DNA of 21,608 bases from a virus. The notes under the pieces are model-generated. The model was not told the DNA's origin, did not search any database, and saw only the letters and a list, made by a program, of their open reading frames with translations. Positions 2,444 through 16,533 of the stretch are shown one piece after another (the stretch's first letter is position 1; every line of letters begins with the position of its first letter). The position numbers and the translations under genes were made by a program. The stretch covers positions 1 to 21,608 of IMG/VR virus record IMGVR_UViG_3300010430_000510; one strand, 5' to 3'.

Positions 2444-3877
2444 TCAGACCCCAGCGTCGTCCACGATGCCGGTGATCTTGAAGTTCTTGTGCGGCGCGAT
2501 GTTTCCGGTCTGCATGACCATGTGCCCCACAGCGTAGAACGAGTCCTTGCGGCCCGTCCCGTCCGTCACGCGGTTCCAGATCGAACCCGTGAGGTCGTCC
2601 CACTCCCAACCCGTGTTCCTCCAATGCTTACAGGTATCGCTCTGGATACCGAAGATCAGAGAGGACGGCATCTTGCGAATGACCTTCAACGTGACGCTCC
2701 TGTCACCGAAGATCATCGACAGCTCGGACTTCCCACCCGTGAACGAGCGTGGGTCGTTGAGCCGCTTGTCGTCCTTGAGGTTCCGCCAGAAGTTCCTCGC
2801 GCCGCTCCGCGACATGAGGATCTTGTCGATCTCGCCCTTCGCCCTCACGAACGTCTGGTCATCCGCGAAAGTGAGAAGATCCTCCGTCACCTGGCCGTTG
2901 TACGGAGCTGCGGAACCGTCGAACACCTGGGAACGCCAGGGCCGATAGTCCGCTCGTGCGAGTCCCTGGAATGACGCGAGAACGTCACCGTTGTCGATCA
3001 TACCCAGGAGGCCCATGATCTCCCTGTCCACACCGGCCGCCTGGTACGAAGCACCCGCAGCGTCACCGCCGAAGATGAAGTCGTCGTCAGCGACGTCGGT
3101 GCCCACCACAGCATCCAGCGTGATGCGGTTGGTGTCTGGGTCAACATCCTCGATGATCCTGGAGCCGGTCACGGTGCGAGGGGTCGTGCCAGCAGCCGCA
3201 GCCGCGAACACAACGCTCTCGCCTTCCATGAACTGCAGCCAGGAATCCTCGAGCCCTGCGACACCCATGCAGGCGTCGATGTCGAGATAGACCTTGGCAC
3301 CCGCGTCGGGATCCGCGTCATCCACACGAGCTCGCACGCCTGCCCCATAGCCGAGCAGCATTCGGTCGATCTCATGGTCAATGCGGGTCTTGAGGTCCGG
3401 CAAGTGACGTTGGGCCCAGGTCACGAAAGCGCCTTCACCGCGCTTCACGCGCCTCATCACATCGCCTGACATCTGAACCACACCCTCGATCTTCTTGAGC
3501 CAAATCTGACTGTTCTTGATGACCGGGCCGTTCGGAACGGGGATGTAGTCGCCCTCGAGCTTACGAGCACCCACACCGGCCGGCAGACTGAAATAGTGCG
3601 CCAGCTCGATGTACCTGCCGCCCGTAGTTTCGCTCACGGACACGTTCATGTCCTGCTCAAAGCAATCGAGCAGCTCCGAGTCCTCGACGATGCTATTCGT
3701 GAGGGGTTCCTCGAAGATGATTTTCATCGCCTCGTTGACGTTGTAATCGACACCGGCTGTGGTGCCGACTTCCGCCATCGCAAGGGCGACGCCTGGTCCT
3801 ACCAGCGCAGCCGCGAGCGCGTGCGTTGCGAGCACGGCCGCGAAAGCCAGTAGGATTCCAAAGAGTCTCCTGTGCAT
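2444..3877 (-). CDS. Major capsid protein with signal-peptide-like N-terminus
   Basis: A 477-residue protein directly after the scaffold-like gene and two genes after the portal, the normal place for the major capsid protein. From about residue 34 (MAEVGTTAG) on it has the length (about 440) and mixed alpha/beta, Gly/Asp-rich texture of HK97-fold coat proteins, including a charged helical segment (LPDLKTRIDHEIDRMLLG, about 159-176). The first 33 residues are unusual: MHRR, a long hydrophobic stretch to about residue 26, then VALA before the internal Met. The ATG at 3877 has a good AGGAGA Shine-Dalgarno element five bases upstream, while the internal ATG (residue 34) has only a weak one. The sequence therefore favours the long form. 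The capsid assignment rests on context and texture, not a recognised motif. Confidence 0.82.
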   Translation of the reverse strand: MHRRLFGILLAFAAVLATHALAAALVGPGVALAMAEVGTTAGVDYNVNEAMKIIFEEPLTNSIVEDSELLDCFEQDMNVSVSETTGGRYIELAHYFSLPAGVGARKLEGDYIPVPNGPVIKNSQIWLKKIEGVVQMSGDVMRRVKRGEGAFVTWAQRHLPDLKTRIDHEIDRMLLGYGAGVRARVDDADPDAGAKVYLDIDACMGVAGLEDSWLQFMEGESVVFAAAAAGTTPRTVTGSRIIEDVDPDTNRITLDAVVGTDVADDDFIFGGDAAGASYQAAGVDREIMGLLGMIDNGDVLASFQGLARADYRPWRSQVFDGSAAPYNGQVTEDLLTFADDQTFVRAKGEIDKILMSRSGARNFWRNLKDDKRLNDPRSFTGGKSELSMIFGDRSVTLKVIRKMPSSLIFGIQSDTCKHWRNTGWEWDDLTGSIWNRVTDGTGRKDSFYAVGHMVMQTGNIAPHKNFKITGIVDDAGV

Positions 3878-3903
3878 CTCTTTCTCCTATAGGTTGTGAA
3901 CGC

Positions 3904-5019
3904 CTACCGGCCTGCCTGCCGCGATAGGGTAGACAAGGCATCGCCCAAGCTCATCTCCTTGAACTCTGCCCGTCGCGCCGGACCTGCCCCGGCACCCGTT
4001 GGTGCCGTCGAAGTGACCTGCTTACGCTTGCGAGTCTTGGCCCTAAACTTCTCGCCTGCGTCTTTGACGGGCTTCTTCTCCCCGTCTGGTTCCACCGGGG
4101 CTTCCCCGGCGTTGATCCCAAAGGCGTCGATCTCGTCGGCCAGAACGCGGTTGATGTCCTCTGGGTCGATCCTTTTTATCGGTTTCCCCGCTCGCTCGGC
4201 CTTCTGAACGTGGTCCGTGAGCCGCGAAAGCGCGGCCCGTTCCCACACAAGGCGTCTGCGTTCGGGTAGTGATTGCCCCATCTCTGTGATTTTGTCGCGG
4301 ATCTCCCATGCGTTTTCCCTGCCCACGCGAACCTGGGTCTTGCGATCCTCGATCTGGTTGCGGAACTCGGCGCGGTTGGCACGCCGGCTTTCGGCGGCTA
4401 TGCGCCTCGGCCCGTCGTCCATCCGCCACTCGTCCACTTTGTCGGCCAGCTTCTCCCACACCGCATCGTCCAGGAGCAAGTCCTCGGCAACGGCGGCGCG
4501 GAGCTCGGGTCCGATCTTCTCGGCCAGGAACCCTACCGGGTCCGCACGGAGCTCGTCCTCCATGATGGCGAGCTGGTCCTGGTCGATCTTGTTCTGGCGA
4601 GCACGCTGCTCTACGGACTCTGCCTGGGCCGCGTACTCCTGGGCGCGATCCGCCTCCTGTTGCAGCTCTGCGATCGCTTCGGCTGCGGCCTCGTCCACTT
4701 CGAGCTCGAGCTCGCCAACTGTGATTGTTACTGCTTCTTCTGCTTCCTCAACCTCCTCGGGTTCCTCCTGTTCAACTTCTTCATCTGCTTCTTCGCTCTC
4801 CTCATCTTCGTCGGACACCGCCGCTTCATCTTCGGCCTCCTCTACCGCCCCTTCGTCGGCGGGAGCCATCTGCTCCGCTTCTGGCGTTTCCGGGGCATCG
4901 GGTTCCCCTTCCGCTTCACTCACCGGCTCCACGCCGACTTGGGGCTTCAACGCATCCAGTACGTCCTTCAAAGTGCCTGGTTCGGTCTGCACGATCTCGG
5001 TTTCCTGTCCATCGGCCAT
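3904..5019 (-). CDS. Scaffolding-like protein, acidic with basic C-terminus
   Basis: A 371-residue protein between portal and capsid genes, where scaffolds are normally encoded. Residues 35-115 are extremely acidic and Glu/Ala/Pro-rich. Residues 110-160 are a probable coiled coil, 160-300 are charged and helical, and the C-terminus is Lys/Arg-rich (about 315-335 and 348-371), ending in a short helix. A basic C-terminal helix that binds coat protein is known for P22-type scaffolds, so this architecture fits. No protease domain is visible. The start at 5019 has a Shine-Dalgarno element in TAAGGAGCGCCCACAATG, which includes the portal's stop codon. The assignment is strong by position and composition, weak by sequence identity. 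Confidence 0.78.
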   Translation of the reverse strand: MADGQETEIVQTEPGTLKDVLDALKPQVGVEPVSEAEGEPDAPETPEAEQMAPADEGAVEEAEDEAAVSDEDEESEEADEEVEQEEPEEVEEAEEAVTITVGELELEVDEAAAEAIAELQQEADRAQEYAAQAESVEQRARQNKIDQDQLAIMEDELRADPVGFLAEKIGPELRAAVAEDLLLDDAVWEKLADKVDEWRMDDGPRRIAAESRRANRAEFRNQIEDRKTQVRVGRENAWEIRDKITEMGQSLPERRRLVWERAALSRLTDHVQKAERAGKPIKRIDPEDINRVLADEIDAFGINAGEAPVEPDGEKKPVKDAGEKFRAKTRKRKQVTSTAPTGAGAGPARRAEFKEMSLGDALSTLSRQAGR

Positions 5020-5031
5020 TGTGGGCGCTCC

Positions 5032-7281
5032 TTACCTTGCGAACTCTGGCAAATGCCTGCCCGTTGGCGGGCCCTGTGGCATTTGCTGTGATCCTGGTCC
5101 TATGGGGCTTGCTCCTCCTTCGGGCGTCGGACCCTTCGGCCCGCCACCGTTCTCGCTTGCTCCGCCCTCCTCTGGCGGGGCCATCATCGCGGCCATCTGC
5201 ATCTCGGCCATGAGCTCCTCGCGCTCCACGATCTTGTGCTTGACCCAATGCTCGTGGAACTCCGCCATCACTTCTGGCGGTAGGCGCAGGTACTCCGGCG
5301 AGGCCATGAACTCCTCGTGGATCCAGATATGCACCATGTTGTCGTACCATTCGAGAATCGGGATCTGCTCGGACGGCACACCCTGTACGAGCTTCCCGTT
5401 CTCCTGCTCGGCCGTGCTCCTGTGAACGCCGCCCGGTCGCGTAGCCCGTGCCATGTGCGGGAATCGTGACAGGTCGAAATACGACTTCCTGGCTTCCGGT
5501 GTCCCCGGCATCCCCAGGAGCCCGTCCGCGTACATCCGGTAGATCCTGTTCTGTCGTTCGCCTCGTCCTTCCGGCAGCATGGATTCTACGTCTACCGTGA
5601 CGTTCACATGGCCGTCCTTGAACATCTCGGGCATGACGGTCACGGTGCGCTGCACGCTGTCCTCGCCAGCGTAGGAGATGATCTTCTCCTCGTCCCATAT
5701 AGCCGGGATGAGCTGGATCCAGTCCTCCACCACACGACCCATCGTGATAGCCGCCCTGCGGAGAGTCGGCCCAAGGAATCGGTCGGTGTTGAAGCGGAGC
5801 TCCTTCACGAGCTCGCCGGAAGCGTCACGGGTCGGTGGCGTGCCCTCCGAGCCCTCCAGGTTGCCCAGGAAGTCCATCTCGTCCTGGAGCATCTCCTGTA
5901 CCCGCCACACATCGGCGGAGAGCTGTGGCGGTTCGGCGTACTCGATTGCGGGGATACCTGGCCGGCGGTTCACTTTGAGAATCAGACCCGGCTTGTTGGT
6001 GATCTGCTCCTCCTCGAGCCCCGACTGTTCGTCAATCACCATCGCGGGGTTCGTCACCAGGTTCCGGTGCTCGAGGATCTGTGCGATCCCACGGTTGTAC
6101 GTCCGCTGGATCGGGTTGAGCATTTCCTGTGGTGAGGTGCCGTGCGGTCTGCCGGGGATGTTCACGAAGTCGAAACGGTGGATCGGGCTCGCGCCTTTGA
6201 ACGCTGCGGGTCGTGGACCGTCGTAGAGCACATGCTCCTTCGAGGCCACGAGCAGCCGGCCACCCGGCTTACCGTCGCCGGCCATCATCGCGCCGTCCAG
6301 CAGCCTCGAGGGTGCGTGCCAGAACTCGTCTATCCGTACTAGCTCGCGGGAGTAACCGTGGTCATAGCCACCCACACCCGGCTTGTTACCGGCAGCTCCG
6401 AAGTACCCGGCCCCGAACATGATGCGCTGTAGCTCGCCGGCCCCGTCTGCTTCTTCGCCACTGGTGTCCGGCTCCACTTCAATGCCCCACCTGTCGTAGA
6501 CCTGCTCGACTGTGAGGTAGGTCCGAAGCATGTGCCACCGCTTCTCGTGGAATGGCTTGTTGTTCCACTCACCGCGCACCTCCAGCGGGTTATGAACCGT
6601 GACTTGGATCTGCCCCTCATTGTACCTGTGGGCTTCCCCGGTGGGGTTCATCTGTCCACCGTCAAATGTTGCCTGGGGCTCGCCGGACTCACTGAACGGT
6701 ACGTCTTGGTAAGTTTGCCCTTCGTGGTCGAGCGAGCCCCTATATTCGCGGACGGGTCCTGCATCTGGATTGATCGTTGACCGCAGGTAGGACGCGCCGC
6801 CAGGTATCAGGTTCGACATGAGCAGGTCTACGACCTCGACCATGCCTACCTCGCTCCAGACGGTCTTGAACACGGTGTCCATGACCTCTGCGAGCTGCGC
6901 GTCCATACGGTCGCCTGTGGATGGCTGGAACGTCACCACGGGCGGATTCTCTGTCATACGGGCGTGCGTGAGCATGTACCAGTAGAGTAGCCGGTTAACG
7001 ACGGGGCGCTGTCGCCACCGACGCTCATCCTGGGTCAAGAACCGCGCCACATCGACCCATTTCTGCAACAGATCGGAGAAGATCATCCACTGTTGGCCTG
7101 CCAACATGCGGATGTTTTCCTCTACCTGCCGGTCCCGGTACTGGAGCGCCCAGGTCTGTGAGCTCCATAGACCGTGCAGGAAGCCAAGCCGTTTCCCGTC
7201 GAGTACGTCACGCTCGCCTTCACCGAACGGATCGGCGCGGAACGGCGGCATTTCCTTGATGATATGTGGCTCTTTCGCCAT
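5032..7281 (-). CDS. Portal protein (P22-like family)
   Basis: A 749-residue protein matching the size (about 725) and general layout of P22-type portal proteins, which form the twelve-subunit ring at one capsid vertex through which DNA is packaged. Features seen are an N-terminal region with a Trp/Arg-rich segment (WALQYRDRQVEENIRMLAGQ, about 44-63), then RPVVNRLLYWYMLTHARMTENPP near 92-114, typical of the portal wing. A central region follows (HGTSPQEMLNPIQRTYNRGIAQILEHRN), where portal stem helices normally lie. The C-terminus (about 690-749) is Met/Gly/Pro-rich and probably disordered. A GGAG element lies eight bases before the ATG. The scaffold and capsid genes follow immediately. Confidence 0.88.
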   Translation of the reverse strand: MAKEPHIIKEMPPFRADPFGEGERDVLDGKRLGFLHGLWSSQTWALQYRDRQVEENIRMLAGQQWMIFSDLLQKWVDVARFLTQDERRWRQRPVVNRLLYWYMLTHARMTENPPVVTFQPSTGDRMDAQLAEVMDTVFKTVWSEVGMVEVVDLLMSNLIPGGASYLRSTINPDAGPVREYRGSLDHEGQTYQDVPFSESGEPQATFDGGQMNPTGEAHRYNEGQIQVTVHNPLEVRGEWNNKPFHEKRWHMLRTYLTVEQVYDRWGIEVEPDTSGEEADGAGELQRIMFGAGYFGAAGNKPGVGGYDHGYSRELVRIDEFWHAPSRLLDGAMMAGDGKPGGRLLVASKEHVLYDGPRPAAFKGASPIHRFDFVNIPGRPHGTSPQEMLNPIQRTYNRGIAQILEHRNLVTNPAMVIDEQSGLEEEQITNKPGLILKVNRRPGIPAIEYAEPPQLSADVWRVQEMLQDEMDFLGNLEGSEGTPPTRDASGELVKELRFNTDRFLGPTLRRAAITMGRVVEDWIQLIPAIWDEEKIISYAGEDSVQRTVTVMPEMFKDGHVNVTVDVESMLPEGRGERQNRIYRMYADGLLGMPGTPEARKSYFDLSRFPHMARATRPGGVHRSTAEQENGKLVQGVPSEQIPILEWYDNMVHIWIHEEFMASPEYLRLPPEVMAEFHEHWVKHKIVEREELMAEMQMAAMMAPPEEGGASENGGGPKGPTPEGGASPIGPGSQQMPQGPPTGRHLPEFAR

Positions 7282-7283
7282 GC

Positions 7284-7991
7284 CTATAGCTCCGTGATCG
7301 ACAAGTAAGACGCCTTGTTGTGTGCGCCGACTCGGTTCTGGTAAAGATGAACGTAGCCGGGATCTTCGTAGGTGGCGTCCGTGCCTTCGTAGGTCGGGGT
7401 GTCGGTGTCCTCAACGTCCACCTCCCACACCTTGATAGCATCACCGATGATCTGACAACGGAATCGGTAGGTGTTCGGGAGCTCGTAGGTCGCAACCGAT
7501 GTATATAAGGTGTTACCGGAGCCCGCATCCCACCGACGCAGGAAGAAGTCCCCGTTGCTCCAGCCGAATCCATAGCCCTCGATTTGCGCCAAAATGGACC
7601 GGAAGAAAAGGTAGCATTGTGAGGACGTGTCGTTTGCGAACTTGATGTCGAGGATGATGTCGAGGTCGGCCGACCCGCTCTCGGGCAGGTAGTACGAGGA
7701 TTTCACGCTACCGCCGCCAACCACTGCTACGGTCCCCAGTCCGGCTTCTACTTGTAGGGTTGTCGCTGGGCTGGTCCAGTCCGTGTCAGTGTTGAGGGTC
7801 CAGGGTCCACCGAGATCCGGCGTGTGGCTACTTAAGACGGTAGCTCCAACTTCAACGAAATAGTCCTCGACAACCAGAGCACCGCCACCACCACCCACGG
7901 CATCACGGTCAACGAATCCCGACGCAGACAGTATCGCGCTCTCCTCAGTCACAATCGGTGCCTCAAGCCGGGGTGCGCTCATCAGCGTCAT
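7284..7991 (-). CDS. Beta-rich, concanavalin-like (jelly-roll) virion protein
   Basis: A 235-residue protein between the packaging genes and the portal. After a short Gly-rich segment (GGGGG near residue 34) it is beta-strand-rich. It carries features seen in concanavalin A-like/LamG-like sandwiches: an opening with SSHTPDLGGPWT (about 54-65), a strand SADLDIILDIKF, then FGWSNGDFFLRRW and YRFRCQIIGDAIKVWEVD. Such domains bind sugars or decorate capsids and fibres. The assignment is by fold-like pattern, not catalytic residues. The start could be residue 1 or the Met at residue 4; neither has a strong Shine-Dalgarno element. Its place between terminase and portal is not standard and suggests an added decoration or adhesion gene. 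Confidence 0.7.
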   Translation of the reverse strand: MTLMSAPRLEAPIVTEESAILSASGFVDRDAVGGGGGALVVEDYFVEVGATVLSSHTPDLGGPWTLNTDTDWTSPATTLQVEAGLGTVAVVGGGSVKSSYYLPESGSADLDIILDIKFANDTSSQCYLFFRSILAQIEGYGFGWSNGDFFLRRWDAGSGNTLYTSVATYELPNTYRFRCQIIGDAIKVWEVDVEDTDTPTYEGTDATYEDPGYVHLYQNRVGAHNKASYLSITEL

Positions 7992-8808: not shown

Positions 8809-9007
8809 CCAGCCACCTCCGTAGTCGGTTGTACCACCGTCCGCGTTTCTGCCGGTACTCGTGCAGCCGGATCAGCTTATCGAACACACCCACGAGCTCT
8901 TTACGCCGCACGATGAGGTCTGGGTGTTTGATGTACTCGGACAATGGCTCGTTCGGCCGGATCCCTTCGGGCTTGACGCCGTTCCTGCGCCGCTGCTCGC
9001 GGTTCAT
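8615..9007 (-). CDS. Hypothetical Arg-rich protein overlapping the membrane-protein gene
   Basis: A 130-residue frame whose ATG at 9007 overlaps the large terminase stop (ATGA), with GGAG seven bases upstream. The first 66 residues look like a real protein: MNREQRRRNGVKPEGIRP, then a helical HPDLIVRRKELVGVFDKLIRLHEY and an Arg/Trp-rich segment ending RRWLDDGDD. The remaining 64 residues overlap the membrane-protein gene in another frame and are Gly/Arg/Ser-rich, like shadow sequence. The gene is probably real with a 3' end that reads through its neighbour. A frameshift joining the N-terminal part to the membrane protein is the alternative. Confidence 0.55.
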   Translation of the reverse strand: MNREQRRRNGVKPEGIRPNEPLSEYIKHPDLIVRRKELVGVFDKLIRLHEYRQKRGRWYNRLRRWLDDGDDRGVHYVDGSGDRPGGGVVPGKHARADAGGEGAAPDVQASTRVRPTLEADSDSERRSSHR

Positions 9008-10542
9008 AGTTGAGCTCCGAACTCGGGGTGAAGGACGTTTTTCGTCATGTTCTTGGGCATCCGGCTCTTACGGCTGTTCTCGTACTCTGTCTCGAGTGCC
9101 TCTTTCGACCAGGCACCTGTCTCCTGCTCCATCTCGCGGTTACCGCTCGGGATCTGCCTGGAGGCCACCGCGTACCGTGTCTCGTCGTAGTGGTCGTCAC
9201 CGCCATTACCGAACTCGTCCGCGTTCTGCTTCAAGGCGTCCTCGGGGTTATCCGGGTCAGACGGCATACCCTCGAGCTGCTCAAAGCACTTCTGGTTGCC
9301 TTCGTTGTCGAACATGACGAGCCAGGGCGCTTCGTCCTCGTTATCGAACGACAGGAACCGACGCAGGTTGTTGAGGCCGGCTACCCGGCTGATGTTCGCC
9401 TGGATGAAGGTGAACCCTTCGCGCAGGAACTCCTCGGCCAGAGTCGGTACGTTCTCCTGCCGCGCCTTGTGGTCATGCCAGCAATCGTGACCGGCATAGA
9501 CATGACGCATTCGCCGCCAGTCGATGTCGTGGAGCTCACACCGGGCTTTGACCATCTGTGCGATTTCGGGCGGTCGCTGGTGCCGGTAGGTGACGGTATC
9601 GACCTTGAAGTGTCGGCCGTCCTCGTTCACAGCGTAGATCCCGAAGCTGTACGGGTGTGCGTAGCCCCAGTCGAAAGAGCCGTAGACCTTCCAATGTTCC
9701 GGTATCGGGAACGGCTTGATGAGGTGGATGTCGGGGTCCATCATGGTCAGCGCCAGGCCGAGCCCTGCGTTCCAGTCACCGTCACGCAGCCAGCTCCGGT
9801 ACGGTTCCGGCAGGGTCGAGAGCTCGTCAACGTAGCCCGGATCCCGTTCCATCAAGACATAGTTGTCCGGCACCTTGGCCTGCACGAAGGCGTACATCTC
9901 CGGGCTTTCACGGTACTTCGAGTAGTAGCGCCGGACGATGAATAGCCGCTTGTACCAATGGTGGCCCACGTTGCCTGGGTTGGACGGATAGAGGACGAAC
10001 GGACGGGCACCAGGTACGGTGGCACGCAGCCGGTTACCTGTCAGCCAGCGCACGAGGTCCCAGGTATAGTGGGTCGCCTCCTCGAAGATCATGAAGTCGA
10101 ACTCGATGCCCTGGTAGCGTCTGAGGTCGTCCTGGTCCTTGAGGAACCCGAAGTACAGCCGGCTCTTGTTGAAGAACTCGGCGCACATATCCTCGCCGTT
10201 GTAGGAGTACACCTGGTCGCCGCCTTTACGACTCGGCCAGCGATCCGGCACCTCGAACTTGAACTTGACCAGATGGTTCGCCTTCACCTCGGCTTTCGTT
10301 GACCGGAAGATGATCCCGGTACAACCGGGCCACCTCATGCACGCCGCGGTGCCGACAGCTCGAGCGAGATGTGACTTGCCACCACCGGCAGCTCCACCGT
10401 ACCCGATATGCCTGGAGTACGGTTCGTCCGCTTCCTTCGCCAGCGGTGTGTGGTTGAACGCCTCCATCTGCTTCGGTTGGAGTGCGTAGATGACCTGGCG
10501 CTCCGAGCCGTCCGGTTTCTGTAAGACGACTACCGGCTCCAT
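9004..10542 (-). CDS. terL: Terminase large subunit (ATPase/nuclease)
   Basis: A 512-residue DNA-packaging motor. The N-terminal ATPase has a Walker A-like GGAAGGGKS at 49-57, a Walker B with catalytic glutamate in FDFMIFEEAT (D149, E154/E155) and an SNPG motif at 187-190 in the motif III position. The C-terminal nuclease has the RNase H-fold acid pattern: FDWGYAHP (D291), AGHD (D353) and GGDDHYDETRYA (D449-D453). The length is normal for a complete protein. The frame extends 14 codons further upstream, but the ATG at 10542 is chosen because it follows the upstream stop by one base. No Shine-Dalgarno element is seen there, so coupling to the upstream gene is likely. The small subunit is six genes away rather than adjacent. 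Confidence 0.95.
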   Translation of the reverse strand: MEPVVVLQKPDGSERQVIYALQPKQMEAFNHTPLAKEADEPYSRHIGYGGAAGGGKSHLARAVGTAACMRWPGCTGIIFRSTKAEVKANHLVKFKFEVPDRWPSRKGGDQVYSYNGEDMCAEFFNKSRLYFGFLKDQDDLRRYQGIEFDFMIFEEATHYTWDLVRWLTGNRLRATVPGARPFVLYPSNPGNVGHHWYKRLFIVRRYYSKYRESPEMYAFVQAKVPDNYVLMERDPGYVDELSTLPEPYRSWLRDGDWNAGLGLALTMMDPDIHLIKPFPIPEHWKVYGSFDWGYAHPYSFGIYAVNEDGRHFKVDTVTYRHQRPPEIAQMVKARCELHDIDWRRMRHVYAGHDCWHDHKARQENVPTLAEEFLREGFTFIQANISRVAGLNNLRRFLSFDNEDEAPWLVMFDNEGNQKCFEQLEGMPSDPDNPEDALKQNADEFGNGGDDHYDETRYAVASRQIPSGNREMEQETGAWSKEALETEYENSRKSRMPKNMTKNVLHPEFGAQL

Positions 10543-10543
10543 C

Positions 10544-10789
10544 TTAGCCAAGTGGCACCTCGATCTCACCGAACGCGATACCATCCAGGTCGGGGTCCAC
10601 GACCACCGGAATCCCGAACATGGTGAAGATCACGCCGCGGAGCGTGTCCGCGTGTGTGTAGTAGCGCCGGCCGGTCCACGCGAGCAGCTCACGGGCCTGG
10701 CGCGGCCCCATGCGGATCTCTTTGGTCGTCGGGTCCAGCACGTTCATGGCGAGCTCGACCCGTTCGGCCGTCAGCGTGATAGTCGTCAT
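10544..10789 (-). CDS. Hypothetical protein upstream of terL (81 aa)
   Basis: An 81-residue protein whose ATG at 10789 overlaps the upstream stop (ATGA). It opens with a beta/helix segment (MTTITLTAERVELAMNVLD), has a basic helical middle (QARELLAWTGRRYYTHADTLRG) and ends beta-rich and acidic (IPVVVDPDLDGIAFGEIEV). It has no cysteine cluster or membrane segment. Small proteins in this place are often packaging accessories, but nothing in the sequence proves that. Confidence 0.7.
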   Translation of the reverse strand: MTTITLTAERVELAMNVLDPTTKEIRMGPRQARELLAWTGRRYYTHADTLRGVIFTMFGIPVVVDPDLDGIAFGEIEVPLG

Positions 10790-11061
10790 TTGGTGGGTTT
10801 CGGTGGCGGGTAGACCGGCTTACTACCGCTCGGACCCACTCGTGGGTTGTGGCCGGACCCAGGCATCTCGTTCCGCCGGACGCCCTTTTTCCAGTTTTTG
10901 ATCGACTTGATGGCGTCGTCGAGCTTCGTCTTACGGATGGCCTTTGTTTCTGCCTTACCTTCGGCGTAATCGGCCGCCCGTGACCGTTTCTTCGTTCGCT
11001 TGACCATCTTCTTCTTGCCCTGCTTCTTCTTCCTGGCGAACGACTTTTTCTCCTGGGGCAT
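10786..11061 (-). CDS. Small, highly basic protein (91 aa)
   Basis: A 91-residue protein with an extremely Lys/Arg-rich first half (repeated KKK and RKKK runs in residues 5-28, then KTKLDDAIKSIKNWKKG). The C-terminus is Pro/Gly-rich, unstructured and ends PPKPTK. A GGAGGAATA Shine-Dalgarno element precedes the ATG, which overlaps the upstream stop. The composition suggests nucleic-acid or acidic-protein binding, perhaps with DNA in packaging, but no fold is recognised. Confidence 0.72.
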   Translation of the reverse strand: MPQEKKSFARKKKQGKKKMVKRTKKRSRAADYAEGKAETKAIRKTKLDDAIKSIKNWKKGVRRNEMPGSGHNPRVGPSGSKPVYPPPKPTK

Positions 11062-11300
11062 TATTCCTCCTCTGAATGCGGACCTGGACAGTCACAGTCC
11101 GCGTAGTGGTCGTTGCATTCCACGCACCACGGCTCGCCACACTCCTCGCACGCCGGACAGTCAGATGCGAACTTAACGGGCCTGGAGAAGTCGATGAAGT
11201 TGGTACGGATGGTGTCGCCAACGGGCGTGAACGAGATGGCACCGTCGTGCCCCTTCTCACGGATCGGCCGTAACCGCCGGTCTATATCCCGTTCAGACAC
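11061..11300 (-). CDS. Cys-rich zinc-binding-like protein (79 aa)
   Basis: A 79-residue protein with a C-terminal cysteine cluster (CPAC, ECGEPWCVEC and DCDC within about residues 48-71) and an acidic tail, suggesting one or two zinc sites. Two GTG starts are possible, at 11306 and 11300. The second is preferred because GGGAGGTGATC lies right before it, matching ten to eleven bases of the 16S rRNA anti-Shine-Dalgarno sequence at normal spacing; the first GTG lies too close to that element. It overlaps the upstream gene by eight bases. Function is unknown. It resembles the zinc-ribbon proteins of the rightward cassette in style only. Confidence 0.68.
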   Translation of the reverse strand: MSERDIDRRLRPIREKGHDGAISFTPVGDTIRTNFIDFSRPVKFASDCPACEECGEPWCVECNDHYADCDCPGPHSEEE

Positions 11301-11760
11301 GATCACCTCCCGTTAAACGACGGTACTCCTCCGTTAGCTGCGTGTGTAGGTCGCGCAACGCCACAGCAATCGCTTCCGCCATGACCCGCCTACGTTGACC
11401 GAGCTCGCCGCAACACGGCAACGGGATCTTGACCTCGCCAGCTACCCACTTGTACCGCTCCTCGCCCCCTGACGGACCCGCGGCTACCTTAACTACCGGC
11501 AACGTAAGCTCTTTCGCGTTTCCCTCGCGTGTCCTCGGGCCGACCGTCTGCGCCACCGCGTCCTGTAGGTGCTCGACCTCGCGGGCATACGCATCAAGTG
11601 CGCCCTCTGTGGATGTGAGCTTCTGTTCCAGCGCGGCGACGTCCGGGTCCTCCTGCTCCAGTATCGGCACTCCGAACGACTTGCCCGTTATCGAACGAAG
11701 GACGTCCTCCAACGAACTTAACCGCCTGTCTAGCTCCGCTACCGCGTACTCCATGTCCAT
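11293..11760 (-). CDS. Coiled-coil protein in the packaging region (155 aa)
   Basis: A 155-residue protein with a predicted coiled coil over about residues 1-70 (heptad-like AELDRRLSSLEDVLRS and DVAALEQKLTSTEGALDAY). A shorter middle contains PCCGELG, and a second basic helix ends it (MAEAIAVALRDLHTQLTEEYRRL). The start has the Shine-Dalgarno AAGGAGCGCCCA, identical over 12 bases to the one before the scaffold gene. It lies between the two terminase subunits, so a packaging or head-assembly partner is possible. No family is recognised. Confidence 0.72.
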   Translation of the reverse strand: MDMEYAVAELDRRLSSLEDVLRSITGKSFGVPILEQEDPDVAALEQKLTSTEGALDAYAREVEHLQDAVAQTVGPRTREGNAKELTLPVVKVAAGPSGGEERYKWVAGEVKIPLPCCGELGQRRRVMAEAIAVALRDLHTQLTEEYRRLTGGDRV

Positions 11761-11770
11761 TGGGCGCTCC

Positions 11771-11986
11771 TTAGATCCAGTACCAGATGAATCCAGCTAC
11801 GAATACCAAAACCCGAACGGCTAAGAAGAATTGAAAAAAAATAGCACGAGGGTCCCATAGTAGGGGCCCCCCCGCGGCGCGCGATCCGGGCCTGCCTCGG
11901 ACGCGGTGGCTGCTGCTGCGGGCGGCGTGGTGGCTGCTGCTGCGGCGAGAGAGAGAGCCGAGAGAGAGAGCACCGTCGCGGCTCAT
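11771..11986 (-). CDS. Possible small membrane protein with low-complexity N-terminus (71 aa)
   Basis: A frame of 71 codons beginning with an ATG that overlaps the small terminase stop (ATGA) and ending 10 bases before the next gene, so it fills the gap exactly. Its N-terminal two thirds are Ser/Arg/His/Gly-rich and encoded by simple-sequence DNA. Its last 24 residues form one hydrophobic helix (AIFFQFFLAVRVLVFVAGFI) ending WYWI. The packing and hydrophobic end argue for a real membrane peptide. The repeat-like DNA and the terminator-like hairpin inside it argue for non-coding sequence. Confidence 0.42.
   Translation of the reverse strand: MSRDGALSLGSLSRRSSSHHAARSSSHRVRGRPGSRAAGGPLLWDPRAIFFQFFLAVRVLVFVAGFIWYWI
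11834..11871 (-). terminator. Possible intrinsic terminator (leftward)
   Basis: Read leftward, a GC-rich hairpin (nine-position stem with one C-A mismatch and one G-U pair, loop TACTAT) lies at 11871-11848. It is followed after six bases by eight consecutive T residues (complement of 11834-11841). The gap between stem and T-run is longer than usual. It would stop transcripts shortly after the small terminase. It competes with the reading of this region as the end of a small membrane protein. Confidence 0.35.
11905..11970. repeat. Direct repeat and GA-microsatellite block
   Basis: GGTGGCTGCTGCTGCGG occurs twice (11905-11921 and 11929-11945). Two GA tracts separated by a CC follow (11947-11970). 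The block lies just downstream of the small terminase coding region in the leftward direction. On the leftward strand it reads as CAGCAGCAGCCACC repeats and CTCTCTCT tracts, encoding Ser/His/Arg runs if translated. Confidence 0.75.
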
Positions 11987-12522
11987 GGCTGCAGCTCTCC
12001 AGGCGAGCCGGCGGTTAGCTGTCGCCCTGGAGTCGTGGTCAGCTCCCCGTTGACCTGGCCGCCGATCAGTCCCCGCAGCTCACGAGGCCCAGCTACTAGC
12101 ACACTGAACCCGCCGGTATGCTGCACACTACCGCGGAGCTCCGGGCGGCCTTCACACCTGTCAACGATGTACTGTGCAGCCTTCACCGCTGACCGGATCC
12201 GTTCGTCAGACCACTTGCCCGGCAACGTGCCAGCCGCTGCCCGCTCGAGGGTTGCCTGCGCTTCTGGGGCCAGCTCCCACCACGACCGCAGCTTGTCCCG
12301 TACACCCTGCGCGGCCTCCGCCCGCAGCTCCGCCAGACGCGCCTGAACCCGCTCCCGCTTTAACAGCCGGCAAGCGGACGCACCGGCGGTGACTTTAGAG
12401 CTGCAACGGGGGAAGGCGTGGAGGTATGAGAGCGTGCCGTTCCCTTGCGTCCCATCGGGGCCAGCAACGTAAGCCAGCGCGAAAGCTTCTTCGCCGCTCG
12501 TGAGGTTGGACCGATCACCCAT
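11983..12522 (-). CDS. terS: Terminase small subunit
   Basis: A 179-residue protein. Residues 1-68 have the pattern of the Terminase_2-type small subunit DNA-binding domain: a helix with EEAFALAYVAG, then GNGTLSYLHAFPRCSSKVTAGASACRLL, and KRERVQARLAELRAEAA, the familiar ending of the helix-turn-helix region. A helical oligomerisation region follows (about 75-125), then a Gly/Pro-rich tail. It recognises phage DNA and hands it to the large subunit. The frame is open to 12600, but the upstream part is not protein-like and the family pattern begins at MGDRSN. No Shine-Dalgarno element precedes this ATG; a TATATC element six bases before it raises leaderless translation. Confidence 0.88.
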   Translation of the reverse strand: MGDRSNLTSGEEAFALAYVAGPDGTQGNGTLSYLHAFPRCSSKVTAGASACRLLKRERVQARLAELRAEAAQGVRDKLRSWWELAPEAQATLERAAAGTLPGKWSDERIRSAVKAAQYIVDRCEGRPELRGSVQHTGGFSVLVAGPRELRGLIGGQVNGELTTTPGRQLTAGSPGELQP

Positions 12523-12528
12523 ACCGTT

Positions 12529-12534
12529 GATATA
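12529..12534 (-). promoter_or_regulatory. Possible -10 element for a leaderless terS transcript
   Basis: On the leftward strand TATATC ends six bases before the terS ATG. With no Shine-Dalgarno sequence present, that distance would place the transcription start at or next to the start codon, as in leaderless genes. No convincing -35 box was found upstream. Confidence 0.3.
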
Positions 12535-12624
12535 CGAGGGCAAGGCGAGACGCGAAAGGCAAGGCCAGGCATCCACTAACGACAGGCAACGGAACGACAC
12601 TACGCGCCCCCTACCCCCTCAGAC

Positions 12625-12652
12625 TTGACAAGATATGCCGCAGGCATATACT
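12625..12652 (+). promoter_or_regulatory. Rightward sigma70-type promoter of the small-gene cassette
   Basis: TTGACA (12625-12630, perfect -35) is followed after 16 bases by TATACT (12647-12652, five of six matches to the -10 consensus). The first rightward ATG lies about 38 bases further on. This is the only near-perfect promoter found in the window, and it drives the rightward block away from terS. Confidence 0.82.
12633..12649. promoter_or_regulatory. Palindromic operator candidate between -35 and -10
   Basis: ATATGCC (12633-12639), spacer GCA, GGCATAT (12643-12649): a perfect 7-bp inverted repeat filling the promoter spacer and overlapping the -10 box. A dimeric repressor bound here would block RNA polymerase. 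A related sequence, CAGGCATCCACTA near 12567-12580, resembles CAGGCATATACTA at 12641-12653 and may be a second half-site. Confidence 0.6.
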
Positions 12653-12689
12653 AGTAGGTACACACCACCACTCAAGACCGGGAGGCATC

Positions 12690-12950
12690 ATGTACCGCTG
12701 GCAGGGAGTACCGCAGGACCACCCCCGGGACCGATCGGTCGGACGGGACTACTACGGCCCACCGCTGGCAGACGAGGCCGAGCCCGCTGCGCTGGACGAG
12801 GTGAAGCTGGCCCCGCGTATCGTCCGGCGTCAGATCGCGCACCTGGAGTGTAACGAGTGCGGCCAGACGTTCACGAGGTCCGCCAAGCGGTTGCGGCTCA
12901 GCGGCGAGCGTTGCCCCAAGTGCGGCGGGTATGACACCGAAATCTCATGA
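12690..12950 (+). CDS. Zinc-ribbon protein, first gene of rightward cassette (86 aa)
   Basis: An 86-residue protein with a C-terminal zinc-ribbon pattern, C54-x2-C57 and C75-x2-C78, in HLECNECGQTF...ERCPKCGG. The N-terminal half is Pro/Asp/Arg-rich and probably flexible. It starts behind the CCGGGAGG ribosome-binding cassette and about 38 bases after the promoter, so it is likely the most strongly expressed gene of the block. Zinc ribbons of this size often bind nucleic acid or host proteins. The specific function is not recognised. Confidence 0.8.
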   Translation: MYRWQGVPQDHPRDRSVGRDYYGPPLADEAEPAALDEVKLAPRIVRRQIAHLECNECGQTFTRSAKRLRLSGERCPKCGGYDTEIS

Positions 12951-12960
12951 CCAACCCCAC

Positions 12961-13041
12961 GGGCCCGGATCACCCCACTATGCCGGACGGCCGCCACCTA
13001 CCAAAAAGGGGCGCAACCTATCGGCGGCCGGATCCGGGCCC
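12961..13041. repeat. Nested GC-rich inverted repeat between the first two cassette genes
   Basis: GGGCCCGGATC (12961-12971) is the exact complement of GATCCGGGCCC (13031-13041). CGGCCGCC (12988-12995) is the exact complement of GGCGGCCG (13023-13030). The right arm is one continuous 19-base stretch; the left arm is interrupted by 16 bases, and the loop is 27 bases. The stretch 12951-13072 is best read as non-coding, so this is a large RNA or DNA secondary structure in the operon. No T-run follows it. Confidence 0.7.
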
Positions 13042-13072
13042 AACCCACCTACCACCCAAGCCGGGAGGCATG

Positions 13073-13306
13073 ATGAGCGCAACGACCTACCCTAACTGCC
13101 CCGAGTGCGGGAGCAAGGTCACTGACCCACTAGGCACCCCCACCTGTACTATGTGCGGCGTCGAGGCTTCGGCGTGGAACTATCGCACGGGCACCGTATC
13201 CCGGTGGATTAGCCGGGAAGCAGCCAACGAAGGCCGGCGAGCGTTGCGCCGGATGATGGATCAAGCCGACGAGGACCAGTGGACGAGGTGGGGCGATGCC
13301 TACTAA
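13073..13306 (+). CDS. Zinc-ribbon protein (77 aa)
   Basis: A 77-residue protein with an N-terminal zinc ribbon, C9-x2-C12 and C25-x2-C28 (NCPECGSK, CTMCGVE), followed by an Arg-rich helix (EAANEGRRALRRMMDQ). The frame is open back to an ATG at 12947 that overlaps the previous stop. That extension is Pro/Arg-rich and crosses the inverted repeat. The start at 13073 is preferred because it is four bases behind the CCGGGAGG cassette shared with three other genes; ATG 13070 is adjacent. A longer 119-residue product cannot be excluded. Confidence 0.75.
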   Translation: MSATTYPNCPECGSKVTDPLGTPTCTMCGVEASAWNYRTGTVSRWISREAANEGRRALRRMMDQADEDQWTRWGDAY

Positions 13307-13484
13307 TCGCGCAGCTCCCAAGGTATGGACGCTCGACGGTGAGCCGGTAGACGTTTTCGACTTCATGGAAGCCAACGACCTAAGCTCGACCGAGGTACGC
13401 GACATCCTGACCATGTACCGCGGCGACCGTATGACCTTCGGCGGGGGAGCCGCCGAACGATTCACCCTGGAGCGTGCCGAATGA
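13296..13484 (+). CDS. Hypothetical small protein (62 aa)
   Basis: A 62-residue protein whose ATG lies inside the end of the previous gene, with GGGG-rich sequence just upstream, and which overlaps the next gene by ATGA. It reads as a compact alpha/beta protein (VWTLDGEPVDVFDFMEANDLSS, then EVRDILTMYRGDRMTFGGGA). It has no cysteines or membrane segment. The overlaps on both sides support a translated gene. Function is not recognised. Confidence 0.68.
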   Translation: MPTNRAAPKVWTLDGEPVDVFDFMEANDLSSTEVRDILTMYRGDRMTFGGGAAERFTLERAE

Positions 13485-14023
13485 GTGCATTTCTGGTCAC
13501 ACCCGGCACCATAGGTGCCGTGGCGAGGTATGCCGCAGACGAGCGGTTGAAGATTTACCACCACCGGGAGCCGGGAAGCTGGCCCACCGGGGACCCGATC
13601 GATGCAACGACCGAGGAAGGGCGGCAAGCAATCTGCACGCTACTTGCTGCCGCCAACATACACAGCTTGGCCGTTCGCTATCCCGACACGGCCGGCGAGG
13701 GCGCGGCGGCCTGGACGAGTGCCGCGCTTGATAACCTGGACTACACCGCACTATGCGTCCAGGCGTCCCGGCTACGGCTGGACAAGATCAAGCCCGAACG
13801 CCTCACAGAGTGGACCGCACCGCAGAAGCACATCAACATTTTCAAGCTCTGCGGCTGTATCGACTACCAGTCGTGTGAGTTTGCCGGGTGGGAGGACTCA
13901 CCCGCCCACCGTATCCTGCGGCGGGTGAAGGATCACGCCGCCGTCAAAGCGTTTGAGGCTCTTTACTGGCCCAACGCCAGCGAACGAGGGAGCCGCTACC
14001 AAGCGGCACCGTGGGGCCTCTGA
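13481..14023 (+). CDS. Conserved-type phage hypothetical protein (180 aa)
   Basis: A 180-residue protein beginning MSAFLVTPGTIGAVARYA. The C-terminal half has CIDYQSCEFAGWEDSPAHRI, a Tyr-Gln-Ser-Cys motif before a Trp and a helical region. I recall similar MSAF...YQSCE proteins from phages and plasmids, where they are annotated as hypothetical. It is the largest gene of the rightward cassette, overlaps its neighbours by ATGA and TGATG, and has no membrane segment. The biochemical role is unknown. Confidence 0.78.
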   Translation: MSAFLVTPGTIGAVARYAADERLKIYHHREPGSWPTGDPIDATTEEGRQAICTLLAAANIHSLAVRYPDTAGEGAAAWTSAALDNLDYTALCVQASRLRLDKIKPERLTEWTAPQKHINIFKLCGCIDYQSCEFAGWEDSPAHRILRRVKDHAAVKAFEALYWPNASERGSRYQAAPWGL

Positions 14024-14244
14024 TGCAGTTCGCCGATCACCGCTGCACACGTTGCGGCCGGGTATGGCTCTCGCACCAGACGGTGCGAGGGTCCTGCCCC
14101 CGCTGCGGTGGCACGCTGCAGCCTGACACCAACGGCAAGACACCCAGACAAGAAGCCGAGGACAGCACACGCGCCCTTGGCTGCGCGATGATATACGCCG
14201 CAATCGTGGTACTGCTCATCATCGCGTTTTTTCTGTACCTGTGA
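14023..14244 (+). CDS. Membrane-anchored zinc-ribbon protein (73 aa)
   Basis: A 73-residue protein with an N-terminal zinc ribbon (C8-x2-C11 and C25-x2-C28, in HRCTRCGRVW and GSCPRCGG). A polar linker follows, then one C-terminal transmembrane helix (about 57-73, IYAAIVVLLIIAFFLYL) ending at the stop codon. This tail-anchored layout puts the ribbon on the cytoplasmic side. The ATG overlaps the previous stop (TGATG); an in-frame GTG lies four codons earlier. A job at the host membrane, such as altering envelope or defence functions, is possible but only inferred. Confidence 0.75.
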   Translation: MQFADHRCTRCGRVWLSHQTVRGSCPRCGGTLQPDTNGKTPRQEAEDSTRALGCAMIYAAIVVLLIIAFFLYL

Positions 14245-14256
14245 CCGGGAGGTATG

Positions 14257-14529
14257 ATGGAGTCGATGCAACGCAGGATAATGGACGAGCTTGAGGCCGC
14301 GTTGAAGATGCGCGAGCTGGACGCGGTGACTAGCTACGAATACACCAACCGGGGCACGCTCTACGGCATGAACGAACACCACGAGAGCGAGGTTACCGTG
14401 GACTTCGAGTTCAACCACGGACGCGCAATCTGCGGCGTCCTGGTACTGGGCGAGGACACGCGGGTCTATCGGTTCGTCTACACGGACGGGCCCATGATCC
14501 GCGAGCTGATCGGTGCGGTGCGAGGATGA
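14257..14529 (+). CDS. Hypothetical alpha/beta protein (90 aa)
   Basis: A 90-residue protein with an N-terminal helix (MQRRIMDELEAALKMRELDAV), then beta-strand-rich sequence (EVTVDFEFNHGRAICGVLVLG; RVYRFVYTDG). The CCGGGAGG cassette lies four bases before ATG 14257, the preferred start, with another ATG one codon earlier. It overlaps the next gene by ATGA. The family is not recognised. It resembles a small soluble, perhaps dimeric, protein. Confidence 0.72.
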   Translation: MESMQRRIMDELEAALKMRELDAVTSYEYTNRGTLYGMNEHHESEVTVDFEFNHGRAICGVLVLGEDTRVYRFVYTDGPMIRELIGAVRG

Positions 14530-14867
14530 CCACCACAGACGCGGGGCACGACCTAACGGTGTCGTGCCCCAACTGCGGAAGTGAAAACATCTGGTATCAA
14601 GAGTATATGTATACGCGGCAGCAGGTTGCGTTCCAGAAAACCGCGGAGCCCGAGGTGGAACGGTTCCACATCGAATGGCTCGACAACTACGAAAACTGCT
14701 ACGACGACACGGAACCCTATCAAGACGCAGAGGGCAACCAGACCTGCTACGGGTGCCGCGATTGCTTTGAGGACTGGACCGAGGCGCAGCTCGTGGTGAC
14801 GGATCCGCAGACGGATAACCAGCTCTATGCACAAGCTGACATCGGGGCGAGGTGCAATAATGGCTAA
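14526..14867 (+). CDS. Cys-rich protein with split zinc site (113 aa)
   Basis: A 113-residue protein with C14-x2-C17 (SCPNCGSENIW) and, after about 55 acidic and aromatic residues, C74-x2-C77-x2-C80 (TCYGCRDCFEDW). Together they could bind zinc in a ribbon with a long insert. The insert is rich in Glu, Asp, Tyr and Trp, so the protein is acidic, unlike a typical DNA-binding ribbon. It overlaps the previous gene by ATGA. Protein-protein interaction or nucleic-acid mimicry is speculative. The family is not recognised. Confidence 0.75.
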   Translation: MTTTDAGHDLTVSCPNCGSENIWYQEYMYTRQQVAFQKTAEPEVERFHIEWLDNYENCYDDTEPYQDAEGNQTCYGCRDCFEDWTEAQLVVTDPQTDNQLYAQADIGARCNNG

Positions 14868-15069
14868 TGACCGCAGTTTCATCGCTCGACAAAGCGCATA
14901 CAACCGGCGAGCGGAAAAGAGCAACACGAGATCCGCGCAACGGTGGGCTGACAAGCTGGTGGAGAAGGAGAACGCGAAGGCCAGGGCGACCCGTTCGTGC
15001 GCTGCGTGTGGCAACGGGATGCGGAAAGCCGCCCGGTTCTGTGAATCCTGCGGAGAGGAGGCAGCATGA
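14860..15069 (+). CDS. Basic zinc-ribbon protein (69 aa)
   Basis: A 69-residue protein with a basic helical N-terminus (SFIARQSAYNRRAEKSNTRS, then WADKLVEKENAKARATR) and a C-terminal zinc ribbon (C47-x2-C50, C61-x2-C64). The ending FCESCGEE resembles the terminal double-zinc-ribbon style. The start ATG at 14860 lies six bases after GAGGTG; an earlier in-frame ATG is unsupported. It overlaps the previous stop. The basic helix plus ribbon suggests nucleic-acid binding. Confidence 0.75.
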   Translation: MANDRSFIARQSAYNRRAEKSNTRSAQRWADKLVEKENAKARATRSCAACGNGMRKAARFCESCGEEAA

Positions 15070-15314
15070 CGCACGAGGAAGCCCTGCGGACGGTTATCAC
15101 GTTCGCACAGGTACGCGCCGATCAATGGCGAGCGGTAGCGAACAGCGAGAACCCGGACACGCTCATCGACGAGCTGCACGAGGCAGCAGCCGAGGATGGA
15201 CTGTTCGAGGCAACCCAACTGGCTGAGATGATCGAGGAAGCGATAGAGCTGGTGGCACCGCTCAAGGTACGCACCGAGTCGCTGGCATGGCTCCGAGTCG
15301 AGGGTGAGATATGA
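15066..15314 (+). CDS. Small helical acidic protein (82 aa)
   Basis: An 82-residue protein, almost entirely helical and acidic (DTLIDELHEAAAEDG; AEMIEEAIELVAPLK). Its ATG overlaps the previous stop (ATGA) with GAGGAGG a few bases upstream. It has no cysteines and no membrane segment. The composition would suit a small dimeric inhibitor or an anti-host protein, but the family is not recognised and that is only a possibility. Confidence 0.72.
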   Translation: MTHEEALRTVITFAQVRADQWRAVANSENPDTLIDELHEAAAEDGLFEATQLAEMIEEAIELVAPLKVRTESLAWLRVEGEI

Positions 15315-15544
15315 AACCACAGAAGAATCGGTACTACATCCGCGCCGTCTGGTATCACGACGACCTGCCGGCCGAGGAGCAGTACACCGAATCCTTCCGC
15401 CTGGACGACGGGCAGAGCTGGCCGAGCGAGACACCTGACGCTTGGGGCGTCTACTACACCAACGACGAAGGCCACGACAAGTGGACCGAGGACTGGCCCA
15501 CGCTCGAACGAGCGCAGGAACACGCAAGGAGTGTGAACCCATGA
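15311..15544 (+). CDS. Hypothetical Trp/Tyr-rich protein (77 aa)
   Basis: A 77-residue protein rich in Trp and Tyr (YYIRAVWYHDDLPAEEQY; WGVYYTNDEGHDKWTEDWP), with a helical end (TLERAQEHARSVN). The ATG overlaps the previous stop (ATGA) and the stop overlaps the next start. It is acidic and soluble. It reads like a small alpha/beta sandwich; the family is not recognised. Confidence 0.72.
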   Translation: MKPQKNRYYIRAVWYHDDLPAEEQYTESFRLDDGQSWPSETPDAWGVYYTNDEGHDKWTEDWPTLERAQEHARSVNP

Positions 15545-15810
15545 GGAAGCAGAACGGGGAACTGCCACCGGCAACGCGGCTCTCGATCCGACAGGGGCGC
15601 AACCAAGCCCCCACACTGGAGGAGTGCCAGGACTTCGTGGGTGGCTACATCGAGGTTGTCCACCTACCCAACGGGGACCAGCTTATCGTGAACGAGGAAG
15701 GGCGCATGGAGCACCTGCAGCTCCCTCACAACCCCGCGGCGTCTGTACTGGCGCGGCGCAACATCGTCGGTAACGCCCTGCTGCTGCAGGGTGATGCCCG
15801 ACTCAGCTAA
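15541..15810 (+). CDS. DUF3846-like phage protein (89 aa)
   Basis: An 89-residue protein starting at the ATG that overlaps the previous stop; the longer open frame upstream is shadow sequence. The central pattern GGYIEVVHLPNGDQLIVNEEGR, then a short LQLPHNP segment and NIVGNALLLQG, matches what I know of DUF3846 (small actinobacterial-phage and plasmid proteins of unknown function). Residues 45-89 hold most of this match. There is no catalytic motif that I can name. Confidence 0.72.
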   Translation: MRKQNGELPPATRLSIRQGRNQAPTLEECQDFVGGYIEVVHLPNGDQLIVNEEGRMEHLQLPHNPAASVLARRNIVGNALLLQGDARLS

Positions 15811-15827
15811 TCAGACCGGGAGGTACA

Positions 15828-16349
15828 ATGCTACTCTGGAACGCCGACAACACGCTGCAAATGTGCCGCTGCCGGACACCCGGCTGCCGAGGGTTCGACG
15901 TATTCAACGTCGGAGAGCACGAGGACGATGGATACTTTCGCGGGCATATCCAAAAGCTGGACGAGTGCGGCCACTTCGAGGACGATGACGAGGCGGCCTT
16001 CGCTGCGATGCGGTGGGGCTACGTTCTCGTGTTCGACAATAGCCTGGAACGGTACTTCGTGATCGAGCAACGGGACACCTGGCCGAACGGGATGCGCCTC
16101 AAGGTGGGCTACCACCGTGAGGACGGTCGCCTGGTCGAGCGGTATCAGATCAAGTGTGCGTGCGGCCAGTACGTTCTGTGCGCCGGGTTCACGAACCCAT
16201 GCGATTGCGGCCGTGACTACGGGATGAACGGCTGCAGACTGGCAGACCGATCACAGTGGGGCGCGGAAACGGGCGAGAGTGTGGCTGAGGTGCTCCAGGC
16301 GGACAACGACTACGCTGACTGGGCGTGGAATGAGAGGCACGGTGAGTAG
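15828..16349 (+). CDS. Cys-rich protein with C-terminal zinc-ribbon domain (173 aa)
   Basis: A 173-residue protein. The N-terminal segment has C13, C15 and C20 (MCRCRTPGC) plus C47; a middle beta-rich part (YVLVFDNSLERYFVIEQRD) follows. The C-terminal ribbon has C110, C112, C118, C125, C127 and C136, in KCACGQYVLC and NPCDCGRDYGMNGCRL, then a SQWGAETGE end. That last domain resembles a small zinc-binding unit common in phage and plasmid hypothetical proteins (recollection, not a search). The CCGGGAGG cassette precedes its ATG. It is the largest of the six ribbon-type proteins here. Confidence 0.78.
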   Translation: MLLWNADNTLQMCRCRTPGCRGFDVFNVGEHEDDGYFRGHIQKLDECGHFEDDDEAAFAAMRWGYVLVFDNSLERYFVIEQRDTWPNGMRLKVGYHREDGRLVERYQIKCACGQYVLCAGFTNPCDCGRDYGMNGCRLADRSQWGAETGESVAEVLQADNDYADWAWNERHGE

Positions 16350-16533
16350 ACTGGTGAGGACGAGCGTGTTGCTCGAACCCGGCGTATGGGAGGAGCTGAC
16401 ACGACTCGCACGACTTCGAGGTGTCGAGGAGGAGCGGCGGGTGAGCGCAAGCGAACTCGTGCGGCGCGGCGTCAAGCGCGAACTCGCGCAAGCCCGTAAG
16501 GGCGAGGAGGGCTTTACCTACGTCCTGCCCTAG
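16342..16533 (+). CDS. Ribbon-helix-helix transcriptional regulator (63 aa)
   Basis: A 63-residue protein of the Arc/CopG/MetJ type: a short N-terminal strand with RLVRTSVLLEP, then helix GVWEELTRLARLRG, a turn, and helix SASELVRRGVKREL. Such proteins dimerise and read operator DNA with the strand pair. A GTG start at 16342 is preferred because GAGAGG lies four bases before it, the same spacing as in the other cassette genes; ATG 16330 is the alternative (67 residues). It closes the rightward block and may repress the palindromic promoter at 12625, but that link is inferred. Confidence 0.78.
   Translation: MSRLVRTSVLLEPGVWEELTRLARLRGVEEERRVSASELVRRGVKRELAQARKGEEGFTYVLP

Follow-up and report, generated by a model that had tools for sequence, protein, structure and literature searches.

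Here we describe a viral head module in which the major capsid protein begins with a signal-peptide-like leader. The DNA analysed (hereafter the window) is a stretch of 21,608 nucleotides, positions 1 to 21,608 of IMG/VR virus record IMGVR_UViG_3300010430_000510. Its head genes are arranged as in a head module, with the terminase first, then a portal of the P22 type, an acidic scaffold-like protein and the capsid, and the features that concern the leader are the following:

9004–10584, minus strand: terminase large subunit (phrog_979, E = 3.6e-29)
5032–7281, minus strand: portal protein (phrog_156; PF16510, P22_portal)
3904–5019, minus strand: acidic scaffold-like protein of 371 residues, between portal and capsid, its N-terminal half very acidic
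3884–3888, minus strand: Shine-Dalgarno element AGGAG, 6 nt 5' of the leader ATG, as read from the sequence
2444–3877, minus strand: major capsid protein gene, 477 residues encoded
3779–3877, minus strand: signal-peptide-like leader MHRRLFGILLAFAAVLATHALAAALVGPGVALA, codons 1–33; 20 further loci have leaders built alike
3866–3877, minus strand: positively charged n-region MHRR (net charge +1 to +3 before the core in 21 of 21 leaders)
3797–3865, minus strand: hydrophobic core, leader residues 5–27 (predicted helix 2–25)
3779–3796, minus strand: PGVALA, a signal-peptidase-like end in which −6 is Pro and both −3 and −1 are Ala; putative cleavage site
3776–3778, minus strand: internal ATG, near the aligned start of leaderless relatives and lacking a Shine-Dalgarno element
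2444–3778, minus strand: capsid body with the HK97 fold, 444 residues plus stop (phrog_14242, AlphaFold2, Foldseek)

The leader-bearing protein is an HK97-fold major capsid protein, and its assignment as such in an earlier, sequence-only reading of this DNA is borne out by profile, gene order and structure model. It matches the PHROGs profile phrog_14242 ('major head protein') with E = 1.6e-27, as do all 34 aligned relatives, and it occupies the capsid position of the head module. Because a capsid-profile sequence search of solved structures gave no match, a fold search was needed. The AlphaFold2 model, built from 34 sequences (pLDDT 80.6, pTM 0.77), displays a leader helix (residues 2–25), a low-confidence linker (residues 29–44) and then the body. 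Foldseek top matches in the PDB were all phage capsids, including Pa223, SU10 and HK97 (for HK97, E about 1e-7 and target-normalised TM about 0.6), and the closest fold match of all is to the capsid model of Arthrobacter phage Jasmine (TM 0.70/0.82). The adjoining scaffold-like protein has no family match among PHROGs and Pfam profiles. It evolves far faster than its neighbour, with 32% identity to its counterpart in L008 versus about 86% for the capsid body.

The product of 7284–7991 (minus strand) has weak second matches (27–30%) downstream in L010 (10441–10971) and L008 (10371–10943), which suggests that a domain recurs in a second late protein. Giant proteins of 2226–2859 residues are shared by three leader-bearing contigs (G001, 39376–47955, L017/L018, where the gene closes the late module; G012, 16289–22969; G015, 10787–18943) and may be virion proteins that are internal or ejected. 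On the strand opposite the late genes, 14011–14244 (plus strand) encodes a small protein whose two CxxC pairs and hydrophobic C-terminus suggest, by eye, a zinc ribbon with a membrane tail. A RecT-like annealing protein (18646–20214, minus strand) and a YqaJ/RecE-like exonuclease (20783–21586, minus strand) make up a recombination pair.

The leader proceeds from MHRR through a long uncharged hydrophobic stretch to GPGVALA, and the body then opens with MAEVGTTAG; the sequence from the internal ATG at 3778 onward is MAEVGTTAGVDYNVNEAMKIIFEEP. The layout given by the sequence-only reading (MHRR, a hydrophobic run and a VALA end) is exact at 3877–3779, with the internal ATG at 3778–3776, and the good Shine-Dalgarno element that it ascribed to the upstream ATG alone is likewise in place: AGGAG stands 6 nt upstream, with nothing similar internally. 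MAEVGTTAG, which had been called conserved-looking, is the start of the body, but in a version specific to the window's clade. The leader overlaps no gene on its strand, because the upstream gene ends at 3904. It is also the only uncharged hydrophobic N-terminus led by Lys or Arg among the 33 called ORFs of the window, in an ORF-based count that is rough (longer antisense frames mask the G012 and G013 capsid genes). This singularity, together with recurrence in relatives, places the leader beyond chance.

About 40 distinct relatives were collected by profile scans of IMG/VR (body scans, one portal-profile scan and two capsid-profile scans); capsid relatives were found neither in two scans of contigs from sequenced prokaryote genomes nor in a scan of plasmids. 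All three close relatives (83–92% overall identity to the window protein) have a leader, of 32–34 residues, and a Shine-Dalgarno site identical or equivalent to AGGAG is present in L008, L009 and L010. Among these relatives the leaders are only 31–68% identical, and those of close relatives differ in length by whole codons. A relative at 42% identity, from the body scan, lacks the leader, and leaders reappear in 17 further distinct loci with bodies about 34–56% identical. Across the window and all 20 other leader loci, the ribosome-binding site is recognisable in most and weak in a few. In total there are 21 leaders: those of the window, L008 (contig of L002), L009 (of L004), L010 (of L003), L041–L043, L047 (near copy L048), L054 (L055), L056, L057, L059 (L060), L062, L068, L103–L105, L109, L123, L128 and L131. 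Half of the capsids placed in a tree (20 of 40) carry one, and the remainder start directly at the body. Leaderless loci are L011, L031, L044–L046, L049–L053, L058, L061, L063–L067, L110, L111, L120, L122, L124, L125, L127 and L144. In the leaderless relatives the start aligns close to the window's internal Met, and no hydrophobic frame lies 5' of it. The pattern that had been named as speaking against the leader, with every relative starting at the internal Met and having no hydrophobic frame upstream, does not hold in the window's own clade, although about half of the wider family starts without a leader. Capsid proteins are not known normally to carry export signals, as the sequence-only reading pointed out. 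The capsids of the cultured phages Shocker (a Microbacterium phage) and Jasmine and that of MW202554 are all leaderless.

The leader evolves quickly. In close pairs its dN/dS is mostly 0.35–0.9 (extremes 0.2 and 1.7; with about 30 codons, single values are rough), as against 0.06–0.14 for the body. Despite this fast sequence change, its charge, its hydrophobicity and a Pro-x4-Ala/Gly pattern are better preserved than drift would allow: across six pairs, the hydrophobic run was kept as observed in only 0.04–1.9% of neutral-substitution simulations, under a simple null (random substitution at the observed level, without codon bias) and with pairs that are not fully independent, those of the window's clade sharing sequences. 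Such a pattern would be expected of selection on the leader's property rather than on its sequence, as in signal peptides. These results bear on whether the leader could be an annotation artefact, with an unused upstream ATG and an accidental hydrophobic frame. Long chance frames do arise in GC-rich genomes and the leader's amino acids are poorly conserved, but the matched anatomy recurs in 21 loci, length differences between close relatives come in whole codons, the neutral-drift null gives P of 0.0004–0.02 in six pairs, and the region 5' of the start codon in leaderless relatives lacks any such frame; an artefact is very improbable. The AGGAG site, the recurrence in relatives and the hydrophobicity kept beyond neutral drift all favour translation from the upstream ATG, as originally proposed, and the leader is almost certainly real and translated. 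It exists on an HK97-fold capsid protein, is conserved in kind and is under selection.

When 40 capsid bodies, half of them from leader-bearing proteins, were placed in a tree built without the leader itself, the distribution of leaders required at least 4 changes, compared with 13.8 expected if shuffled, and none of 500 shuffles was as low. Three of the changes are forced by well-supported branches, and the leaders of L103–L109 are nested within a leaderless group. As judged from this tree, the leader is an element gained or lost repeatedly. It is not essential to this capsid, because about half of the family, including some closely nested members, do without it. No gene family tracks the leader among the families common to eight leader-bearing and five leaderless contigs. 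A separate small membrane-protein gene in the leader's stead was sought directly upstream of the capsid genes of leaderless relatives, where none was found; one weak hydrophobic candidate gene lies downstream of the capsid at a single locus (L065).

All 21 leaders are composed of a positive n-region and an uncharged hydrophobic core, with a net charge of +1 to +3 before the core and of 0 to −5 over the 20 residues past the putative end. Ala or Gly is found at +5 from the core-ending Pro in 15 of 19 leaders (the next-best offset reaches 9 of 19), and a second Pro at +7 in 9 leaders, counts that are inflated by related rows. Judged by its residues, the combination of Pro at −6 and Ala at −1 looks typical of signal peptidase I substrates. 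Position −3 is Ala in the window and Leu or Met in several leaders, and L042 and L043, with charged residues at the expected cleavage site, do not fit the pattern. In L057, the peptide starting at the predicted cleavage site is APLFVGETTDVSD... As the sequence-only reading had it, the leader has the anatomy of a signal peptide. Many leader-bearing lineages also have a second motif after the leader, consisting of a small residue, Pro, three to four hydrophobic residues and Gly (L041, L047, L054, L057, L059, L062, L068, L103–L105, L109 and L131); it has no counterpart in leaderless relatives.

We scored the leaders with a home-made linear discriminant trained on 52 E. coli K-12 proteins from annotated regions, of which 17 are exported, 18 lie in the inner membrane and 17 are cytosolic (leave-one-out accuracy 46/52). 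All 21 were classed as membrane-directed (P(cytosolic) ≤0.02). The discriminant does not separate a cleaved signal peptide from an uncleaved anchor in these leaders: 12 were called signal peptides and 9 anchors, with the window at 0.50/0.50. Leaderless relatives were mostly called cytosolic (12 of 14), the other two being called anchors from a hydrophobic first body helix. The mean hydrophobicity of the best 12 residues is 2.79 in the leaders and 2.33 in the 17 E. coli signal peptides, which brings the leaders nearer to anchors. By composition, then, a membrane-directed character of the leaders is well supported. In several lineages hydrophobic residues continue past the putative cut (APLFVG, LPFVVG, APILMG), which leaves room for a hairpin or re-entrant insertion in which the body stays cytoplasmic. 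Signal-like N-termini on other head and tail proteins were limited, in a rough count, to occasional lipoprotein-like or spanin-like genes and are thus not a property of the whole virion. Genes of these kinds in relatives (G001, 5089–5871 and 6419–6955; G008, 16728–16913; recognised by eye, without family matches) give a hint of Gram-negative hosts. The tRNA genes, scanned for host clues, came to a single tRNA-Gly in one relative.

The internal start codon raises the prospect of two products by choice of start, the long form having a minor role and the short internal-Met form being the shell subunit. The internal ATG lies near the start of leaderless relatives, and its Met is retained in the window, L002, L003, L004 and L056. 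However, this ATG has no Shine-Dalgarno element, and most leader lineages have no Met there: it is missing from the leader–body junction of L041, L047, L054, L057, L059, L062, L068, L103 and L131, and no Shine-Dalgarno-led start was found at the junction of these Met-lacking loci. A short internal product, which the sequence-only reading had entertained alongside the long one, is therefore not the general explanation, and the leader form is taken as the product because most leader-bearing relatives lack an internal start. At most, the window's clade and L056 could use two starts, and as an account of the shell subunit we find this idea distinctly improbable.

Membrane targeting in the cell is our inference, and the leader probably meets the membrane. 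Our preferred reading, to which we give about an even chance, is that the capsid protein is carried to the inner membrane by its leader, assembles there and later loses or keeps it. Translation from the upstream ATG gives the capsid protein an N-terminal leader directed to the membrane; while still nascent, this hydrophobic segment would most likely be recognised by host SRP/Sec or YidC and would take the capsid protein to the inner membrane; scaffold, portal and capsid protein would form the prohead on its cytoplasmic face; and host signal peptidase or a different protease would then cut off the leader, or it would be retained as a flexible N-terminal tail. That the leader serves assembly at the membrane has, at best, even odds, and assembly there combined with leader removal is a guess. 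More tentative still is the specific version in which host machinery sends the shell subunit to the inner membrane, proheads are built there and removal of the leader, perhaps by signal peptidase, frees the head.

The charge pattern complicates membrane assembly, since it predicts an N-in/C-out orientation. The body would then end up on the far side of the membrane, out of reach of ATP-driven packaging, and the membrane model would require loop insertion or a translocation stop. The same charge bias predicts export of the body and, with the classical signal-peptide anatomy, speaks for true secretion, whereby part of the capsid protein would be Sec-exported to a role in the envelope or periplasm (a decoy or a block to superinfection) and the remainder would build virions; in the window's clade the internal ATG could give the cytosolic form. 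Most leader lineages, without an internal start, would have no such cytosolic form, and a body N-terminus that is hydrophobic past the putative cut in many lineages (such as APLFVG and LPFVVG) would be unusual in a secreted protein. Export of most of the capsid protein would also defeat packaging: plain secretion is not the productive route, because the shell is filled by an ATP-driven motor in the cytoplasm. We consider secretion improbable, if slightly less so than two start-selected products.

A further alternative keeps the leader from the membrane altogether, as a cleavable or buried assembly peptide that packs inside the prohead against the acidic scaffold or other leaders and is lost on maturation, in the manner of the HK97 delta domain. 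The leader is N-terminal, like delta domains, an acidic scaffold gene adjoins the capsid gene, and the model shows a helix followed by a flexible linker. On the other hand, a separate scaffold-like gene is already present, and the leader is short and hydrophobic, with no charged coiled coil, whereas a delta domain is a long hydrophilic N-terminal domain that takes the place of a scaffold. Those late-module proteins of the 50-kb relative G001 that were scanned against Pfam and PHROGs gave no match to a prohead protease. A nascent chain with at least 12 hydrophobic residues is normally taken up for the membrane, and the leaders score as membrane-directed. An assembly peptide of this type is unlikely, although it stands ahead of secretion.

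In the textbook view, assembly of HK97-fold capsids is cytosolic and driven by scaffold and portal. If assembly at the membrane is right, this family would provide a membrane-coupled route of HK97-fold capsid assembly that has been gained or lost several times. A membrane-directed leader on the shell subunit would make the old idea of membrane-associated head assembly, so far linked to the T4 portal, genetically testable, since the family offers a ready-made comparison between closely nested members that have the leader and members that lack it. In practice, start-site calls and export predictors will misread leader-bearing capsid genes. No tailed-phage major capsid protein with a signal-peptide-like leader was found in the open-access papers searched, which is weak evidence of absence.

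Among tailed-phage HK97-fold capsids, those of phrog_14242, including Jasmine gp17 and Shocker gp23, share with the window protein the body fold, the profile and the gene order portal, scaffold-like protein and capsid; unlike the window protein, however, the capsids of Jasmine, Shocker and MW202554 have the body as their first element. With Sec signal peptides processed by signal peptidase I, the leader has in common a positive n-region, an uncharged hydrophobic core and a terminal Pro followed by Ala or Gly, whereas its core is more hydrophobic than in E. coli signal peptides, it sits on a protein that acts in the cytoplasm and its cleavage is putative. M13 pVIII procoat is a viral coat protein with a cleavable leader that is sent to the inner membrane, and in this the window protein would resemble it on our reading; it differs in fold and virus realm, has a second transmembrane helix and leaves the cell by extrusion. 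The HK97 delta domain and the T4 gp23 propeptide are likewise N-terminal capsid extensions, and the leader, too, is possibly removed on maturation, but they are hydrophilic and of greater length, and a phage prohead protease cuts them, whereas the leaders of the window's family are hydrophobic and about 25–42 residues in length. T4 prohead initiation (gp20, gp40, YidC) is a precedent in that capsid assembly takes place at the membrane, as we infer here. Assembly of the T4 prohead begins from the portal gp20 on the inner membrane, and gp20 is crosslinkable to YidC (PMC9958956). In T4 the portal is thus the membrane-bound initiator, whereas in the window's family the shell protein itself carries the element.
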